From positions 1 to 49,540 of the IMG/VR virus record IMGVR_UViG_3300046001_002717: DNA of 49,540 nt. One strand, given 5' to 3'. Below, in pieces: positions 3,353 to 36,092 of the stretch. The notes under the pieces were generated by a model. The model saw only the letters and a list, made by a program, of their open reading frames with translations. It had not been told where the DNA came from and made no database searches. Position 1 is the stretch's first letter. Every line of letters starts with the position of its first letter. The DNA is from a virus. The position numbers were made by a program, and so were the translations under genes.

Positions 3353-5360
3353 AAAAGAGGAGCCTATTTCTGTTCCTAACATCCTAGATACCCTTGACGA
3401 GCAGGAGCAACTAAAGATTGCTGCTCAATGTAAAGAGGGTTTTGAGGAAGATTTGGAAAGTCGTGGTGAATGGGAAAGCAACATTGACGACTGGATTGCT
3501 CTAGCCAAACAAACTAAAGAAGATAAGACATATCCCTGGCCCGGTGCCAGTAATGTCAAGTATCCTCTAGTTACCACGGCTGCTATGCAGTTTGCTGCAC
3601 GTAGCTACCCTAGCTTGGTACCTTCCAACGGCAAGATTGTGAATGCTACAGTCATTGGTAAGGACCAAACAGGACAGAAATACGAGAAGGCTCAACGTGT
3701 TTCTACCTACATGTCCTACCAAGTGATGCACGAGATGTATGGTTGGGAAGAGGACATGGACAAGATGCTTATGATGCTCCCCATCATTGGCACCATGTTT
3801 AAGAAGACGTGGTATGACAAGGTAGAGGACAAGGTTAAGAGCAAGCTGGTGTTGCCTAAGAACATTGTTGTCAACTACTGGACTGTTTCTCTAGATGAAA
3901 CTGAGCGCATTAGTGAAGTAATTCATATGTCTCGTCGTATTCTTAAAGAGAAGCAGAACATGGGTATCTATGCTGATGTAGACCTAGCTGATCCTGTAGC
4001 TGCTGCCAATCTAATGCCTGACGATGCTATGCAAAATAGCAACAGTGTTCCTTATACCATCATTGAGCAACACACTTTTCTTGACCTAGATGATGATGGG
4101 TATGCTGAACCCTACATTGTAACCTTTGAATATACCTCCGGTAAACTGTTGCGCATTAGTCGGCGCTATCACCTTGATGATGTAAAGCTCAAAGATGATG
4201 GGAAAACAATTGCAACAATTAAACCAATTCAGATGTACACCAAGTTTGGTTTTATTCCCAATCCGGATGGTAGCTTTTACGATATTGGTTTTGGTATTCT
4301 TCTTGGTCCTATTAACGAGAGCGTAAACACGCTTATTAACCAACTAGTAGACAGTGGACACTTACACAATCTTCAGTCAGGCTTTATTGGCAAGGCTCTT
4401 AGACTCAAAATGGGTGACCAAAGCTTACGTCCTGGAGAATGGCGACCAGTCAACGCTACCGCAGACGACCTGCGCAAGCAAATTGTACCTCTCCCCACAA
4501 AGGAACCTAGCTCTGTTTTGTTCCAGCTTATGGGGACACTCATTACCTCAGGAAAAGAACTTGCCAGCGTAGCAGAGATTTTCACTGGTAAGATGCCAGG
4601 ACAGAATACCCCGGCTACCACCACAATGGCTACTGTAGAGCAAGGTATGAAAGTATTTACTGCTGTATACAAGCGTATCTTCCGGGCTCTTGCAGAAGAA
4701 TTTGATAAGATTTTTGAACTCAACAGTCTGTATCTTGATCCGAACAAATATGTTACGGTGCTAGATATGGAAGTAGGTCCAGATGACTTTGACCATTCTT
4801 CCTGCGATGTTTCTCCTGCTGCTGATCCTAATGCAGCCTCACAGCAAGAGAAGCTTATGAAGGCCCAAGGGCTCATGGAAATGCTCCAGGTAGCCGGACC
4901 TATCTTCAACCCAGTTAAAGTGCTCTCAAGGGTGTTAGAAGCCCAGGAACAGCCTAACTGGCAAGAACTCTTTAGTGACGAGGTGATTCAGAGCGGTCAA
5001 GTACCACCTCCTCCACCTGATCCTAAGATGATGGCTATTCAAGCTAAGATGCAAGCTGACCAACAGAAAGCCGCTATTGACATGCAAGTGAAACAACAAG
5101 GCATGGAATTGGCTGGTCGCAGTGCAGAACAGAAAATGGCAATGGAAGCTCAAGCACATGCACAGAAAATGCAGATGCAAGAACAAAGCGCCATTGTAAA
5201 ATCAGCCTCTGACATTCAGATGGCTAACATCTTTAGTGCGGCAGAACGTGCTAAAGCAACCCAAGGTCTTGTGCAAAAGCAACAAGCCCATGAACAGAAA
5301 CTATCTCAACAGAAAGAGGTGGCAAAATCAACGTCCAAGAATGGCGCGAAAGCGAAGTAA
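3291..5360 (+). CDS. Portal protein
   Basis: A 689-residue portal, which would form the dodecameric channel at the packaging vertex. It contains the characteristic WPGASNVKYPLV near residue 80, a long alpha/beta core, and a C-terminal tail of about 100 residues rich in Gln, Met, Ala and Lys that is likely a helical barrel. It follows the large terminase directly, as in most tailed phages. Two starts are possible: ATG 3291, preceded by a purine-rich GGAAGAAG, or in-frame ATG 3315. The size suits podovirus portals of the P22 kind. Confidence 0.9.
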   Translation: MTNYENQDMAGQASPPPQATEKEEPISVPNILDTLDEQEQLKIAAQCKEGFEEDLESRGEWESNIDDWIALAKQTKEDKTYPWPGASNVKYPLVTTAAMQFAARSYPSLVPSNGKIVNATVIGKDQTGQKYEKAQRVSTYMSYQVMHEMYGWEEDMDKMLMMLPIIGTMFKKTWYDKVEDKVKSKLVLPKNIVVNYWTVSLDETERISEVIHMSRRILKEKQNMGIYADVDLADPVAAANLMPDDAMQNSNSVPYTIIEQHTFLDLDDDGYAEPYIVTFEYTSGKLLRISRRYHLDDVKLKDDGKTIATIKPIQMYTKFGFIPNPDGSFYDIGFGILLGPINESVNTLINQLVDSGHLHNLQSGFIGKALRLKMGDQSLRPGEWRPVNATADDLRKQIVPLPTKEPSSVLFQLMGTLITSGKELASVAEIFTGKMPGQNTPATTTMATVEQGMKVFTAVYKRIFRALAEEFDKIFELNSLYLDPNKYVTVLDMEVGPDDFDHSSCDVSPAADPNAASQQEKLMKAQGLMEMLQVAGPIFNPVKVLSRVLEAQEQPNWQELFSDEVIQSGQVPPPPPDPKMMAIQAKMQADQQKAAIDMQVKQQGMELAGRSAEQKMAMEAQAHAQKMQMQEQSAIVKSASDIQMANIFSAAERAKATQGLVQKQQAHEQKLSQQKEVAKSTSKNGAKAK

Positions 5361-5512
5361 GCCGAGCCTTTAAACAAGGCTTGCTACAAGCTGTAAAAGA
5401 CAAGCAAGATAGCTGTCTTACATGGGATGCAGAAAAGCTGGTGTACCATCAAGGTTACATCACTGCCCTCCTAGAAATTATTGATTCAGACTACTTCTCA
5501 AAGGAGAACTAA
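5327..5512 (+). CDS. Small protein after portal, apparent ATC start
   Basis: Between portal and co-chaperonin an open frame runs from a stop at 5291 to TAA 5510-5512. It has no ATG or GTG and only a TTG well inside (5369). The best initiation signal is AAAGAGG (5313-5319) placed 7 bases before ATC 5327, giving 61 residues beginning M/I-NVQEWRESEVSRAFKQ. The composition is protein-like and helical, and its stop overlaps the next ATG (TAATG). If ATC is not used, a shorter TTG-initiated form of 47 residues is the alternative. Confidence 0.5.
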   Translation: MNVQEWRESEVSRAFKQGLLQAVKDKQDSCLTWDAEKLVYHQGYITALLEIIDSDYFSKEN

Positions 5513-5832
5513 TGATTGTTGTTACTGGTTGTCGTATCTTAATCAAACCGTTTAAGATTCAAGAGCATGATAAGGTATATGCCTCAGCTAAAGCCGCTGG
5601 TATTGTTCTCTCAGAAACCTCAGAACGTAAAGAACAAGTTAACGTAGACAAAGGCACTGTATTACAAATTGGTGCTAAATGTCATGAGGATTATGTGGGT
5701 GAGCTGGCAGTAGGTGACACAATTGCCTATGCTAAGTTTGGTGGTAAGTTTATCACTGAGCCCGGTAGCGAGGATATTTATCTAGTAATCAACGACGAAG
5801 ATGTTGTTGCTATTTTTAAGGAAACTAAATGA
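5512..5832 (+). CDS. GroES-like co-chaperonin
   Basis: The 106-residue protein matches the Cpn10/GroES pattern along its length: an N-terminal strand CRILIKPF, a mobile-loop-like AAGIVLSETSERKEQ (the GIVL element binds GroEL), GTVLQIG, VGDTIAYAKFGGKFI, and a C-terminal DEDVVAIF. Phage co-chaperonins such as T4 gp31 replace or adapt host GroES so that the chamber can fold the capsid protein. Its position between portal and scaffold, just before the capsid genes, supports that job. SD AAGGAG lies 6 bases before ATG. Confidence 0.8.
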   Translation: MIVVTGCRILIKPFKIQEHDKVYASAKAAGIVLSETSERKEQVNVDKGTVLQIGAKCHEDYVGELAVGDTIAYAKFGGKFITEPGSEDIYLVINDEDVVAIFKETK

Positions 5833-30325: not shown

Positions 30326-30503
30326 CAATTGGAGGGAAGTTCCTGTAGTCATCCTCATCCTCAATGATTTGCATAGGTAGGGCACCAGCTTCCATTAGCG
30401 TGTTTAAACCCACTGCTAAAACATATTCATGTTCTTCTGGAGACAGGGTGCCCTTAAAGGTAACTTCACCCTTTTTTGTCTTGATTACTTTTTTTACTTC
30501 CAT
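30303..30503 (-). CDS. 66-residue acidic hypothetical protein
   Basis: SD AAAGGA stands 5 bases before ATG 30503. The N-terminal part is basic with beta character (EVKKVIKTKKGEVTFKGTLS), and the C-terminal half is strongly acidic (IIEDEDDYRNFPPIDDEEQQ). The size and acidic tail recall DNA mimic or inhibitor proteins, but this is only a resemblance in charge. It overlaps both neighbours. Confidence 0.6.
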   Translation of the reverse strand: MEVKKVIKTKKGEVTFKGTLSPEEHEYVLAVGLNTLMEAGALPMQIIEDEDDYRNFPPIDDEEQQH

Positions 30504-30864
30504 TGGATTCCTTTCGTTGTTGGGATTCATTGTAGCTTTTAATCTTATGACAGCCTATGCATAAAACTTGTAAGTTGTCTTTAGAACAAAAGAGCCTTTC
30601 AATGAAAACATCCCAAGAGATAAAACCGTGCTCTGGGTGGACGACTGGCTCCCGGTGGTCTACAACCACATCTTTAGAGGGAAACTCACCTTCACAGAGA
30701 GCACATAGATAATGTTTACCTTCTCTGTTTGTCTTGGTGTTAAGTCTCTGTCCTACATATGCCTCGTTGAGACATTCATATTTGGGTGGATAGCGTCGAG
30801 TGCCAGAGCGCAATACGGAGGTAACAAAAGCTTTTAATCTTCCTTCTGACCAGGGGGCTGCCAA
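30466..30864 (-). CDS. HNH endonuclease, TTG start
   Basis: A 132-residue nuclease. A zinc-binding CALCEGEF and CIGCHK frame the HNH core VVDHREPVV, then DNLQVLCIGCHKIK, giving a canonical Cys4-HNH arrangement. Start is TTG 30864, well placed after AAGGAAAACA. It directly follows the 5'-3' exonuclease (31-base overlap), so it may act in recombination or concatemer processing, or be a mobile nuclease. The tail is Lys/Ser-rich. Confidence 0.8.
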   Translation of the reverse strand: MAAPWSEGRLKAFVTSVLRSGTRRYPPKYECLNEAYVGQRLNTKTNREGKHYLCALCEGEFPSKDVVVDHREPVVHPEHGFISWDVFIERLFCSKDNLQVLCIGCHKIKSYNESQQRKESNGSKKSNQDKKG

Positions 30865-31573
30865 TGTTTTCCTTCCTCTTTTAGAATATATAGAAGTTGT
30901 GCATTTACATGCAAGTCAGGACTATTCTCTGTCTCGGCATAAATGTCATATACATAACTATACATATCAATTTCTTCTGTCATATGGTTAATGGGCTCTT
31001 GCAGCTTCTCAATGAACTTAGGACATGTACCTCGCATAGCACCATCAAATCCAGGAATGTTGTCACTCTTATCACCCAATATAATTTGTTTATAAAACGT
31101 CTTTAAACCATCTAGAGGAGACACCAGTTTAAACTCCTGGTTAACCCAATTGAAGTGATTACCCGCAATCATCAAGAGGTCTTTGTCCAAACTGCAGATT
31201 CGGCTGTTTCCGTCAAGCTGTGTCTGACGAATACCAAGCATGTCATCTGTTTCAATGCCATTGACAATAGAGCTACCATACTGTGTTACAAGCTGTTCTC
31301 TACAAGCTTCTAGGTATGTTGGTTTAGGTTTGTCTTTACGGTTGGCCTTATACTCAGGGTAAATGGTGTAACGGAAGTTGTCACTACCTCCTAGATAACA
31401 TTCAATCTCACTACTGTTCGTAGCAATACAAATACGCTCAATCATATCGTTGAGCCGCCAAATAGCAACCTCAGGGGGCTCTAGGAAGGGCTTAGCTCGT
31501 GTTGGTTCACACGAGGCGCTGGCTCGGTATGCGATTAGATCGCCTAACCGTCCAGGAGATTAATTAAGCTCAT
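30834..31573 (-). CDS. 5'-3' exonuclease; frame broken at codon 9-10, possible 5-nt ribosome bypass
   Basis: A flap/T7 gp6-like exonuclease. Seen: GDLIAYRAS, NFRYTIYPEYKANR, IETDDMLG, SLDKDLLM and GDKSDNIPG, which are the acidic metal sites of the family. ATG 31573 has a strong SD (AAGGAGGG, 31590-31583) and reads MSLINLLDG, then TAG at 31546-31544. The rest of the protein is in another frame beginning GGC GAT (31544). Jumping from GGT (31549-31547) to GGC (31544-31542) gives a continuous 244-residue protein with the family's LLDGD aspartate. No ATG, GTG or TTG follows until residue Met of MIERIC (31445), which would lose that aspartate. Alternatives are a pseudogene, a -1 frameshift, an intron, or an error in the sequence. 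Confidence 0.75.
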
Positions 31574-32094
31574 GGACGACTGCCCTCCTTACTCAACCAG
31601 GAGATTTGAGTGTTCTGTTTCATTGCACGCCTATATTGTTGCGTTAGTCTAGCTTTCCAATCAAACTTGTTTTTATTAAGACCTTTGAGTTTTCTGTACT
31701 CATTAGTTGCTTCTCGACAAGTATTGTGGTAGCCGGTCCAAGTAGTATTTACTGTAGAAAACTTATCTATTGTTTCGTACTGTTTATGATAGGAGCACCA
31801 AATGTGTGTGGTCCAGTGTACTCCAGCTTTTAGATATTTCTCCTTTGCATGGATAAGGAAATGCTCTTTGTCGTTAGCACAAAGCTGTAGATTTTCTCTA
31901 CGATTATCTAATTTATTAGAATTAATATGGTGTACTAATTCATCTCCTACTAGCTCTCTACCTAGTATTTTCTCCATAATGTGTCGATGGACATACTTCT
32001 CAATACCATTGAGAGAGAATCTTAAGTAACCTACCCCATTGATCCATGTATGTCCAATCTCTGCAATGAGGTCTCCGTCAAGGAGGTTAATCAT
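31570..32094 (-). CDS. HNH homing endonuclease with exonuclease-derived N-terminus
   Basis: A 174-residue HNH protein. Its core KYVHRHIMEKILGREL, ELVHHINSNKLDNRRENLQL is the standard HNH of phage homing nucleases; a C-terminal part is basic and may read DNA. The first residues, MINLLDGDLIA, copy the start of the exonuclease encoded just downstream (INLLDG-DLIAYR), with different codons. ATG 32094 overlaps the upstream stop, and its own stop overlaps the exonuclease ATG. This suggests insertion into an exonuclease gene and co-evolution with the broken exonuclease start. An ATG at 32124 is less likely. Confidence 0.8.
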   Translation of the reverse strand: MINLLDGDLIAEIGHTWINGVGYLRFSLNGIEKYVHRHIMEKILGRELVGDELVHHINSNKLDNRRENLQLCANDKEHFLIHAKEKYLKAGVHWTTHIWCSYHKQYETIDKFSTVNTTWTGYHNTCREATNEYRKLKGLNKNKFDWKARLTQQYRRAMKQNTQISWLSKEGSRP

Positions 32095-33300: not shown

Positions 33301-33497
33301 GCCTTGAGAACTTCTACATCCACACCGTTGTATTCGTGTGCTGCTTCAAGAGCTTGGTTCCAACACACCCGTAGCCATTTCTGGAGTCGCTTCTCATCTT
33401 CCGAGACAGAAGCATGATGAAAAAGGTCGTCTAGGATACGTTCGCGGGTAATCTCAAATCCTACCCAACCATTGTACCACTCTTCAAACGCAAGCAT
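33297..33497 (-). CDS. 66-residue FEEWY/WNxAxEAA-type protein
   Basis: A helical protein with FEEWYNGW near the start and WLRVCWNQALEAAHEY near the end. The spacing FxxWY...WNxAxxAA recurs in two other small genes here (38280-38498 and 39228-39479), marking a small paralogous family often seen in phages. It overlaps the polymerase fragment gene by 14 bases. Function unknown. Confidence 0.6.
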   Translation of the reverse strand: MLAFEEWYNGWVGFEITRERILDDLFHHASVSEDEKRLQKWLRVCWNQALEAAHEYNGVDVEVLKA

Positions 33498-34218
33498 ATT
33501 TAATTTCCTTCATATCTTTCATGTTCATACCAGCCTTAACCTCGCAGGCTAAAGGCACCTTCCAATCGTAGCCAAAGATGTTCTTAATGTTCTTTGGCAG
33601 GTCTCTAAACACCTCATGGAACATTGCTACCAACGGCTCTGTATAAGCCTTAGGAGCATCAACTACAATGGAGTCATGGATGGTAGACAGCAAGAGAGTT
33701 TTGTCGATGTACGGACTCTTTTTAAGCCTATTATTAAAACTCACTCGTGCCAAAGCCATAACATCATGACCAGTACCCTGTGTGGGGTAGTTCACAGCTT
33801 TCGTCACAGGAAGCTCTAGTTCTCCTTTGTAGTTGGTTACCCAAGGGATAAGCCATTCACGCCCCAGCGGGCCGATTAGGGGCTTTCCTGAGGCTATTAA
33901 AGATAGGTTGTGGTCATACAGCTTATCAATGCCTTTATACTTGGTGTAAAACTTCTCACCCACAGCATCCCAGTATTTTACGGATGTTGAAACGTGCATG
34001 AAGTCAGGGTCTACAGTGAAGGCATAACCCTTGCCCCTGTTAAACACTGTACGAAAGAGATAGATTTTTGCTATTAGCCTACTTGGTAAACCAAACGCTG
34101 CTTGGTTTAGGGAGTGGGTATCTTCTTTGTTCAGTATTTCTTTAAGGGCTGTAGGGTCTTGGCTAAGCTCAGTTACTACGCGCCATTCGAGACCCGCAGC
34201 ATCGGCGGAGATAAGCAT
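33484..34218 (-). CDS. DNA polymerase A, C-terminal (palm-fingers) part
   Basis: A 244-residue protein beginning exactly at motif A: MLISADAAGLEWRVVTELS (the catalytic Asp is in ADAAG). Motif B follows as RLIAKIYLFRTVFNRGKGYAF and motif C as TIHDSIVVDAP with the second catalytic Asp. It completes the exonuclease-thumb part encoded at 34965-36092; together they total 619 residues, a normal size for a phage T7-class polymerase. ATG 34218 lies 2 bases after the upstream stop, so re-initiation is likely. Two chains must assemble to give a working enzyme unless splicing joins them. Confidence 0.85.
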   Translation of the reverse strand: MLISADAAGLEWRVVTELSQDPTALKEILNKEDTHSLNQAAFGLPSRLIAKIYLFRTVFNRGKGYAFTVDPDFMHVSTSVKYWDAVGEKFYTKYKGIDKLYDHNLSLIASGKPLIGPLGREWLIPWVTNYKGELELPVTKAVNYPTQGTGHDVMALARVSFNNRLKKSPYIDKTLLLSTIHDSIVVDAPKAYTEPLVAMFHEVFRDLPKNIKNIFGYDWKVPLACEVKAGMNMKDMKEIKYACV

Positions 34219-34220
34219 AA

Positions 34221-34403
34221 TTAGCCCATTGCATCTTCTTGTGATGCTTTATATCCAGCGTTATACATTGACCCTACTAAAGCTTGGATAAGGTCTAGGG
34301 TGTCAGTGTTAAGCATGTCCCAAAAGATGAGGGCCTCCGCAGCAGAATAGGGGGTGTTAGCAACTACGCACATTACAAATTGTTCTTTTTTATGTAGATT
34401 CAT
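34221..34403 (-). CDS. 60-residue hypothetical protein between polymerase parts
   Basis: A helical protein (EQFVMCVVANTPYSAAEALI; LDLIQALVGSMYNAGYKAS). Its ATG touches the upstream stop (TAAATG) and its stop is 2 bases from the downstream polymerase fragment. It is one of three small genes that separate the halves of the polymerase. It does not resemble a homing nuclease. Function unknown. Confidence 0.6.
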   Translation of the reverse strand: MNLHKKEQFVMCVVANTPYSAAEALIFWDMLNTDTLDLIQALVGSMYNAGYKASQEDAMG

Positions 34404-34754
34404 TTATGCAATGTTCCAAACGTAGTCTGAGTTAGTTTTAACACTCTCATTACCATCATACTCATCAATATGATAGGCTGTCCCTTTAGGTAAATCTTCG
34501 ACAGCTAGAGAGGCACACATACCATTTGCTTTCTTGCCTAGTTGTTCTACTACAGCCACAAGGATAGGATCAGTGCGGTCTAAGTTCCCCCCACCACCGT
34601 AGTCGTATTCCACTGGTTTTCCTGGTTCCCACACATCCCCCAAAATACAAGGCCCGCACCAGTTAGGATCGTTTGAAAGTTTTCGACCTAGCAGCACAGC
34701 CTCTCGTGAGAGACCAAAACCACCAAAACAATTGTTATAAACTACTTTAGTCAT
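34404..34754 (-). CDS. Conserved phage protein of unknown function
   Basis: A 116-residue protein starting VVYNNCFGGFGLSREAVLLG, a pattern I recall from hypothetical proteins of many phages. A Gly-rich YDYGGGGNLDRTDPILVAVV segment and a charged end follow. It may be a small alpha/beta domain. It lies within the interval splitting the polymerase. Function is not known. Confidence 0.65.
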   Translation of the reverse strand: MTKVVYNNCFGGFGLSREAVLLGRKLSNDPNWCGPCILGDVWEPGKPVEYDYGGGGNLDRTDPILVAVVEQLGKKANGMCASLAVEDLPKGTAYHIDEYDGNESVKTNSDYVWNIA

Positions 34755-34755
34755 A

Positions 34756-34947
34756 TTACACTTTCTTCATTAATAGAGAAGCCATTGTCTTCTTATTCTT
34801 CAATGCCTGTAGCTCACGTTCTAGTTTTAGAATATGAACATTTGCAGCAGCAATGGCTTCAAAGTTAATCTCTACATCTAAATCAATGTCAGGATCATTG
34901 ATGGCATTTACCATCTGTTCCCATGCATCACGTTCATATTTATTCAT
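34756..34947 (-). CDS. 63-residue coiled-coil hypothetical protein
   Basis: A protein with an acidic first half (NAINDPDIDLDVEINFEAIA) and a helical, coiled-coil second half (HILKLERELQALKNKKTMAS). It begins 17 bases after the stop of the polymerase N-terminal part and is the first of the three genes in the split. Function unknown. Confidence 0.55.
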   Translation of the reverse strand: MNKYERDAWEQMVNAINDPDIDLDVEINFEAIAAANVHILKLERELQALKNKKTMASLLMKKV

Positions 34948-34964
34948 TATACCTACTTACAATT

Positions 34965-36092
34965 TTAATCATCATATCTGCTGATTATGATATCGGACAC
35001 ATCTCCGGCTAGGTTCTGCCCATTGGGTTTAGAAGAAGAGAGGCGTCCCGTTTGTGTTACGCACATGTTATAGCCAGGATATAAATATCCGGGTTGCCAG
35101 TCCATCTCTTTGTTTAGGTTTGGTAGGCCCTCGTAATAAGTACCTATTAGTTTATCTAGCTTAGATAGCTGTTGAATGTATGGTAAATACTTTTTAGCGA
35201 AGGGTCCTTTAAGTTTCTTTAAAGTGCCTTCTGCGGTTGAGAAGATGTTTTCCTTCCCCATCTCACTCTTAGGAAGAGGTTGCACCATACGGGGTAGCAC
35301 ATGCTCAATGTCTTTGTTCACATACTTGACTTGCCCTTTTTTTGCACCTGATTTATAGAAACCATCAGCTTGTTTAACAGTTTCAACAATAGTTCCACCA
35401 TATAGGAATGCAGAAAGCTGGTCGTTAGACCCAAAATTAATAGGAACCCCAGGGTACACAACAGACAATAGAGCAAGAACAGCAGAGCGTTGTTCATGAC
35501 ATTCTGCCACACGAGAAGCACATAGTTCTTCGTCATACTTTAAGCCATTCCACTCCATTTCAACAAGGGTTAGCAAATCCTGACAGGCCAGTTTAAATAG
35601 CTTGTACAATAACGGACGTTGCACAAACTGTTGTAGCTGTTTGTTGTAGATCGCATAAGTAAGCTCCACATCCTGCACGCAGTAAGTGGTAAGGATATCT
35701 TTAGGAACTGCGTCGGTGTCAATACCTTTGTCCCAATATTCGAGCTTAACAACGTCCAGCTTGTTTGATAGACCATATTTCTTTGCCGTTTCTTCAAGGG
35801 AGGGGTAGGGCTTCTGCCTGTCCAGCATGTACTCTGCTAACTGTACGCAATGCACTTGTTTAGGAGATTCAAACCCTAGTTTTTTGTTCCAAAGTAGGTC
35901 AAACTTAGCGTTAAAAGCAACTACTAAATCCACAGAGGCAAACCAATCTTTATCAAAAGACTTAAAGTTAAAGGCGCAATGTGTTTCTTCTTTATTTAAT
36001 TTCCAACCTAAACAAACTGCTTTGCCTTGTAAGCTATGTGCATTCCCTTTGGCGAATGTGTTGGTCTCATAATCGAAGGTTAAAATATTCAC
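34965..36092 (-). CDS. DNA polymerase A, N-terminal (3'-5' exonuclease and thumb) part
   Basis: A 375-residue protein with the proofreading motifs FDYETNTF (Exo I, DxE), VVAFNAKFDLLW (Exo II) and YCVQDVELTYAI (Exo III), then a thumb region and the pre-motif-A element TGRLSSSKPNGQNL. It stops at ISRYDD, where whole polymerases continue into motif A. The missing motifs A-C are in the 33484-34218 gene. The start is GTG 36092 after GGATTTTTAAAT. Confidence 0.9.
   Translation of the reverse strand: MNILTFDYETNTFAKGNAHSLQGKAVCLGWKLNKEETHCAFNFKSFDKDWFASVDLVVAFNAKFDLLWNKKLGFESPKQVHCVQLAEYMLDRQKPYPSLEETAKKYGLSNKLDVVKLEYWDKGIDTDAVPKDILTTYCVQDVELTYAIYNKQLQQFVQRPLLYKLFKLACQDLLTLVEMEWNGLKYDEELCASRVAECHEQRSAVLALLSVVYPGVPINFGSNDQLSAFLYGGTIVETVKQADGFYKSGAKKGQVKYVNKDIEHVLPRMVQPLPKSEMGKENIFSTAEGTLKKLKGPFAKKYLPYIQQLSKLDKLIGTYYEGLPNLNKEMDWQPGYLYPGYNMCVTQTGRLSSSKPNGQNLAGDVSDIIISRYDD

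Follow-up and report, generated by a model that had tools for sequence, protein, structure and literature searches.

A 5′–3′ exonuclease gene whose conserved frame has no start of its own

How is a conserved phage 5′–3′ exonuclease produced when its reading frame is interrupted within the first metal-site motif? This question is raised by the window analyzed here, the whole 49,540-nt stretch of IMGVR_UViG_3300046001_002717, a single metagenomic contig, in which profile matches place the exonuclease on the minus strand (PHROG 107, 7e-49; Pfam 5_3_exonuc_N, 1e-10). The features of the locus are as follows; L numbers denote other contigs.

31570–32094, minus strand: HNH endonuclease ORF (Pfam HNH_3, 5e-9), fused in frame to the original exonuclease codons 1–11 (MINLLDGDLIA)
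32062–32094, minus strand: original exonuclease start (codons 1–11), which today encodes the N-terminal end of the HNH protein; L053, L051, and L047 are arranged alike
31583–31590, minus strand: Shine–Dalgarno sequence AAGGAGGG of the recoded start; AGGAGGG invariant in all carriers
31550–31577, minus strand: hairpin GUCYA-U-GAG / CUY-N-URGAC, conserved among carriers; it takes in the start codon, and its last base immediately precedes the take-off codon (from pairing and stability)
31544–31573, minus strand: recoded leader ORF MSLINLLDG, ending in UAG (read from the sequence)
31547–31549, minus strand: take-off codon GGU, invariant in all carriers
31542–31546, minus strand: the five putatively bypassed bases, UAGGC; TAGG invariant
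31546–31544 and 31544–31542, minus strand: UAG stop and landing codon GGC, which shares the G of UAG (read from the sequence)
30834–31541, minus strand: exonuclease body after resumption, from GAU (PHROG 107, Pfam 5_3_exonuc_N; the hop product aligns over residues 4–232)

A preliminary description had reported a strong Shine–Dalgarno sequence, ATG 31573, the reading MSLINLLDG, a TAG directly behind GGT, and a return of the exonuclease frame at a GGC five bases on, and all of these elements were confirmed on the sequence. The leader reaches GGT 31549–31547, TAG 31546–31544 follows immediately, and the conserved frame (GDLIAYRAS...) is open from GGC 31544–31542 to its stop at 30834 (236 aa), so that the step from GGT to GGC is +5. 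Ahead of GGC, the window offers this frame no start codon, and the first one available afterwards is ATG 31445, 33 codons into the gene. No exonuclease other than this one is encoded in the window. A search for an exact copy of the window's own exonuclease start found none, and no near-identical DNA was found among GenBank phages. A random 5-nt insertion in this stretch would permit a same-tRNA hop giving the exact product with a probability of 5.5%, or 0.5% when an adjacent stop is demanded as well; the recurrence of the gap in seven other contigs is more decisive than these chance figures.

Two further features of the neighborhood were recorded. The family-A DNA polymerase of the window (33484–36092) lies in two ORFs, 34965–36092 (ending ..SRYDD) and 33484–34218 (starting MLISADAAGLEWR), set apart by a spacer of about 750 nt with three small ORFs, and the polymerase of MW202697 (L040) is likewise split (3696–4856 and 5275–5820). 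A second HNH-type gene (PHROG 3106; 30466–30861) overlaps the 3′ end of the exonuclease, a position conserved in relatives, gap-free ones included.

The gap recurs at the same codon in six lineages

The same module was observed at the same exonuclease codon in seven further viral contigs (L041, L047, L048, L049, L051, L052, and L053), with the consensus AGGAGGG-N5-GUCYAUGA, followed by 8–9 codons and then by ..GAC GGU UAG GN GAY. In 8/8 sequences, window included, the 0-frame ends in GGU-UAG and the exonuclease resumes exactly at +5 on a GGN codon, which is GGC in the window, GGU in L041, L047, L048, L049, L051, and L052, and GGA in L053. Leaders are 9–10 residues long, and the codons flanking the module differ synonymously between carriers; L041, whose exonuclease is 79% identical to that of the window, has the same Shine–Dalgarno sequence and ATG and the same GACGGTTAGG amid synonymously different codons. 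L047 and L049, assembled from two metagenomes, agree over 5,312 bases and represent one phage, and the exonucleases of L048 and L051 are 84% identical. The lineages with the module number six, window included, the most distant of which share 34–40% of exonuclease residues, and all carriers are uncultivated metagenomic contigs.

Two patterns, both limited to +5 gaps, were used in the scans. The exonuclease-motif scan of 2.9 million viral contigs (L/I/V-D-G/A, any two bases, G/A-D-x-x-A-Y-R) left the two bases separating take-off from landing unspecified and accepted Ala besides Gly codons. Of the eight loci it returned, seven were real, and each of these had TA (UAG) and landed on Gly at +5; L050 matched the motif by chance. 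The gene-independent pattern (Shine–Dalgarno sequence, TCYATG, a variable stretch, and GACGGTTAGG), which contains no exonuclease sequence after TAGG, led to exactly the same seven viral contigs. Among the rejected candidates, L046 matched the Shine–Dalgarno/ATG part by chance only, and L054–L056, which the module pattern matched among genomes, lack a leader frame.

The gap was found in none of eight isolates or GenBank relatives (MW202697, MW202796, OK172329, MK613347, MK613348, OP830906, MW202701, and MF431616), all with intact starts, and a further 35 viral relatives (L003–L037) also have intact exonuclease starts. The close gap-free relatives of the window are L002 and L043. Positions 1–6736 of L002 contain two different exonuclease alleles in opposite orientation and look like an inverted chimera, and L043 has another HNH gene (942–1394) one gene upstream of its intact exonuclease, beside a conserved small gene MYK(I/L)M....

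The same five bases occur in other contigs, and the independent assemblies L047 and L049 agree. Relatives without the module have an intact gene; L048 and L052 have no nuclease and keep the gap. An assembly or sequencing error, which a single metagenomic contig such as the window naturally invites, is refuted by this recurrence and can be regarded as virtually impossible, given that six metagenomes supplied seven further contigs with these five bases, most of them only 36–47% identical in the exonuclease, and that the window's other alignable genes each run in one frame. Recurrence, synonymous flanks, purifying selection (see below), and the intact gene in module-free relatives together exclude both an assembly error and a recent frameshift.

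Purifying selection after the gap, in a frame that needs its N-terminus

Comparison of the window with L041 gave a pN of 0.128 and a pS of 0.680 overall, and 0.089 and 0.643, respectively, in the first 33 codons, which are the stretch ahead of the window's first internal ATG; for L048 and L051, pN was 0.092 and pS 0.292. These figures mark the sequence downstream of the gap as functional, protein-coding, and under purifying selection. The broken 0-frame could nonetheless mean that the gene is dead or yields only a fragment, the gap being an old inactivating mutation that spread with the cassette, and homing can spread mildly harmful alleles. We consider this improbable: purifying selection extends over the whole frame in several lineages, including the codons ahead of any internal start, a gap of exactly +5 with the same TAGG is held while synonymous sites are near saturation, and the gap persists in L048 and L052, where the nuclease is lost.

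In the alignment, the LVDG Asp of the Taq polymerase 5′ nuclease, a metal-binding residue in this family, stands opposite the first Asp of LLDGD; on this basis, the exonuclease needs its N-terminus. The window, L047, L049, and L053 have no exonuclease-frame start ahead of landing. L041 and L052 have in-frame ATG/GTG codons upstream, and L048 and L051 have an ATG 2 codons past landing; none of these would restore the catalytic Asp. The latter ATG codons would suit a split enzyme, in which translation terminates at UAG and re-initiates just downstream while the leader peptide provides the catalytic Asp in trans, and phages offer precedents for split enzymes in Aeh1 NrdA and T4 topoisomerase (PMC2988022). 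This arrangement seems very unlikely, as a start codon near landing is absent in the window, L047, and L053, and none follows shortly after in L041. Moreover, we know of no precedent for a 9-residue peptide complementing an exonuclease fold in trans.

An upstream endonuclease gene carries the original exonuclease start

The preliminary description had placed a homing nuclease beside the gap. A nuclease gene is indeed present upstream, but it is more than a neighbor. Its N-terminus, MINLLDGDLIA (ATG 32094), is of the same type as the starts of the gap-free relatives L002 (two alleles; L002b) and L043 (MINLLDGDLIAYRSAAS...), and is the exonuclease's original start, which that description overlooked. 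Since this native start persists upstream, fused to the HNH gene, the gapped start is a second, recoded copy; it forms the 3′ end of an insert of ~530 bp, and six synonymous differences separate it from the native copy. The TGA of the HNH ORF overlaps ATG 31573 of the recoded copy (ATGA), which suggests translational coupling of the leader to the nuclease ORF.

All intact modules were observed to have an HNH or Endonuclease VII-type gene directly upstream, usually fused in frame to the exonuclease's original first codons (MINLLDGDLIA- in the window, MIALIDGDII- in L053, MSKTLLIDGDI- in L051, and MTHILTDGD- in L047); in L041, the native start has decayed (ATGTTAAATCTTGTTGACAGGGCTTAA). L051 and L053 have HNH genes 51–55% identical to that of the window. 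Unlike these, the L041 nuclease is an Endonuclease_7 protein (1.5e-23), with an EndoVII-like homolog in L047/L049 (48% identical). These two unrelated families share the 3′ module and a C-terminal tail, KEG(S/R).., encoded by it. Querying viral and genome contigs with the HNH protein gave no match, the patterns having demanded exact 8-mers. In two carriers, the nuclease has been deleted and the gap kept, with the last 34 HNH residues left in L048 and ~20 EndoVII residues in L052. The remnant in L052 is a 23-codon mini-ORF (565–633; MKAAMKYLISHTENGTLKEGSGL) that still ends at the AUGA overlap, as if translational coupling had been kept.

The carriers are polyphyletic on the exonuclease tree (the AU test rules out a single clade, p 3e-60, and no fewer than four changes are required), and the module therefore moves. 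A linked endonuclease gene at the interruption and a scattered distribution among host genes are two of the features expected of a mobile cassette. Judged from gene order and phylogeny, the nuclease and the recoded gapped start are one transferable unit.

With a native start upstream, in frame with the HNH gene, a self-splicing intron joining that start to the exonuclease body might also be envisaged. Such an intron is scarcely credible: no Rfam group I or II match was obtained even at E up to 10, no junction with U before and G after would restore the protein in this sequence, L048 and L052 have neither the upstream start nor the nuclease, and a second recoded start with its own Shine–Dalgarno sequence would be needless.

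A hairpin spans the replacement start codon

The preliminary description had drawn a hairpin 3′ of the take-off codon (GGUUAG-GCGAU-CUAAUC), which proved not to be conserved; its alternative, GCGAU-CUA-AUCGC, can form in the window and is absent from relatives. The hairpin that is conserved lies elsewhere, running from just before the AUG to the base preceding GGU, with 98% of cells paired across seven sequences. RNAalifold recovers the same stem, and its consensus fold contains no stem 3′ of take-off. One pair shows a double change (C-G in four sequences, U-A in three), and at sites where a recoded copy has the pairing A or G, the native copy of that phage has T or C. Compared with synonymous recodings, the real leader ranks among the most stable 0.2–6% in each of the 6 lineages, corresponding to a combined p of ~8e-7 if the lineages are independent, which is true only in part given the shared ancestry of the module. 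The hairpin signal, although observed, rests on one double change and on stability tests, and is weakened by this shared ancestry.

Proposed mechanism: a 5-nt bypass within a mobile cassette

The best explanation of these observations, and in our judgment a very probable one, is a mobile homing-endonuclease cassette with a programmed 5-nt bypass by P-site tRNA-Gly (GGU to GGN), similar to T4 gene 60/mobA, the hop itself being inferred without protein data. The programmed bypass beside a homing nuclease that had been suggested for the window is thus supported, with take-off GGU, UAG, and a +5 GGN kept in six lineages. According to this model, the cassette would have inserted at the catalytic-site codons (D-G-D) of the exonuclease gene, where its nuclease gene would borrow the original start and its 3′ end would supply a recoded replacement start with its own Shine–Dalgarno sequence and the 5-nt frame-breaking gap. 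Ribosomes would initiate at the replacement AUG and read 9–10 codons to GGU, placing UAG in the A site; peptidyl-tRNA-Gly would then detach and re-pair 5 nt downstream at GGC/GGU, and translation would resume at GAY to give an intact LLDGDLIAYR active site, with INLLDGDLIAYR as the expected junction peptide.

From GGU, the only nearby codon cognate to tRNA-Gly with anticodon GCC lies at +5, and a stop codon in the A site is a known setting for hopping (PMC5009743). The +5 hop is inferred from this sole cognate codon, from the UAG in the A site, and from the better score of its product. The anticipated product LLDGDLIAYR keeps the invariant LLDGD metal-site motif and scores 177.3 bits (aligned over residues 4–232, metal site included), 9 bits better than the 168.4 bits of the −1 product, whose N-terminal alignment is lost. 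That −1 product, LLDG-LG-DLIAYR (junction peptide INLLDGLGDLIAYR), would arise by ordinary −1 (or +2) frameshifting at GAC GGU UAG, which brings about the identical frame change and, in the window, would find the −1 frame open over the 15 nt that precede the landing codon. Frameshifting of this kind is nevertheless very unlikely, since it would put two residues into the invariant D-G-D metal site and require tRNA-Gly to pair with CGG or UUA in the absence of a slippery heptamer; no slippery sequence for −1/+1 re-pairing was found, nearby GGN being reached from GGU only at +5, and the conserved UAGGN offers a cognate codon only there. A 5-nt hop would also explain the fixity of UAG, the only stop whose last base can start a Gly landing codon.

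Several points count against this best explanation or limit it. Protein, ribosome-profiling, and reporter data are all missing, so the hop and its efficiency are inferred. In L053, the landing GGA is a poor match for a GGU-reading tRNA-Gly with a GCC anticodon, and the leader of 9–10 residues is too short for a T4-type nascent-peptide signal. The combination of landing GGA with take-off GGU in L053 (584–586) constitutes a natural test of the pairing needed for landing.

The role of the hairpin is likewise inferred: ending before the take-off codon, it probably stimulates the hop or limits backward movement. It cannot fully form while its 3′ arm still lies in the ribosome, and, as with the 5′ stem-loop of T4 (PMC11194080), it may refold behind the ribosome, favoring forward movement, or it may instead control initiation. 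Self-protection is a further inference. The gap and the recoding probably shield the occupied allele from the cassette's own nuclease, as that allele lacks an intact target, the gap sitting at the nuclease-ORF junction codons and the rest of the copy being recoded; protection against a linked nuclease has also been proposed for the T4 gap (PMC5009743). That the gap is kept where the nuclease has been lost would suit a defense against nucleases of competing phages, again an inference.

A broader reading is that these loci form a mobile family of minimal bypasses, with a 5-nt hop at codon 9–10 driven by the start-codon-spanning hairpin and not by a nascent-peptide signal, and with a self-protecting replacement start that was captured by two unrelated endonuclease families and kept after nuclease loss. 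We lean toward this reading with some reserve; if true, it would define a mechanistically distinct class of ribosome bypassing. It would suggest that bypass can be minimal, without a long nascent-peptide signal, and would support the view that such gaps originate within homing-endonuclease cassettes as a means of self-protection. In practical terms, gene callers would annotate the exonuclease of every carrier as truncated or without its catalytic aspartate.

Comparison with known systems

To our knowledge, T4 gene 60 is essentially the only accepted case of programmed ribosome bypassing in bacteria or phages, and the 5-nt hop of the module would be the shortest natural ribosome hop known. Our search of the open-access literature found no earlier report of the module or of a natural case this short. 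The mobA–gene 60 mobile cassette is reportedly the subject of work by Bonocora et al. in PNAS in 2011 (doi 10.1073/pnas.1107633108). Gene 60 bypassing was called unique among T4-related phages in 2010 (PMC3014915), and a second independent family with natural variants would open bypassing to comparative analysis.

The closest of the other likenesses concern short hops and interrupted replication genes. Hops of +5/+6 in E. coli reporters and synthetic stop-hops (Weiss et al. 1987, doi 10.1101/sqb.1987.052.01.078, cited in PMC10274946; PMC5009743) likewise carry peptidyl-tRNA past a stop codon to a matching codon 5–6 nt on; those are constructs, whereas the site described here is natural, conserved, and apparently required for the enzyme. 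The mitochondrial byp elements of Magnusiomyces capitatus are also numerous short inserts bypassed in translation (PMC5009743), but they are nucleotide blocks of other sizes and need relaxed mitochondrial decoding. Aeh1 nrdA/mobE resembles the module in having a free-standing homing endonuclease in a region of a replication gene that is critical for function (PMC2988022), yet NrdA is split into two polypeptides, whereas the recoded start and hop would keep the exonuclease as one. Its linked nuclease also sets the module apart from the byp elements, whose copies are not known each to have one.

The most extensive comparison was made with T4 gene 60 and the mobA–gene 60 cassette (PMC5009743, PMC3014915, and PMC11194080). 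Both systems have a Gly take-off codon directly followed by UAG, a Gly landing codon, and a frame change; in both, an essential replication gene is interrupted by an HNH endonuclease gene lying upstream, take-off is preceded on the 5′ side by a stem-loop (PMC11194080), which in the module spans the start codon, and the gap is proposed as a guard against cleavage. The match between take-off and landing is of the gene 60 type in 7/8 sequences (GGU to GGC/GGU) and imperfect in L053 (GGU to GGA). In contrast, the gap measures 50 nt in gene 60 and 5 nt in the module, where the landing codon shares a base with the stop, and the leader has 46 residues with a KKYK signal in gene 60 and 9–10 residues without KKYK in the module, too few for a nascent-peptide signal ~25–30 residues before take-off. 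A take-off stem-loop that contains the take-off and stop codons is likewise lacking, the local hairpin of the window not being conserved. The module further differs in having two nuclease families, in occurring in several independent lineages, and in residing in an exonuclease and not a topoisomerase gene, and it has no sequence relation to gene 60. Thus, the module works like T4 gene 60/mobA while failing its defining features, and is not a member of that system.
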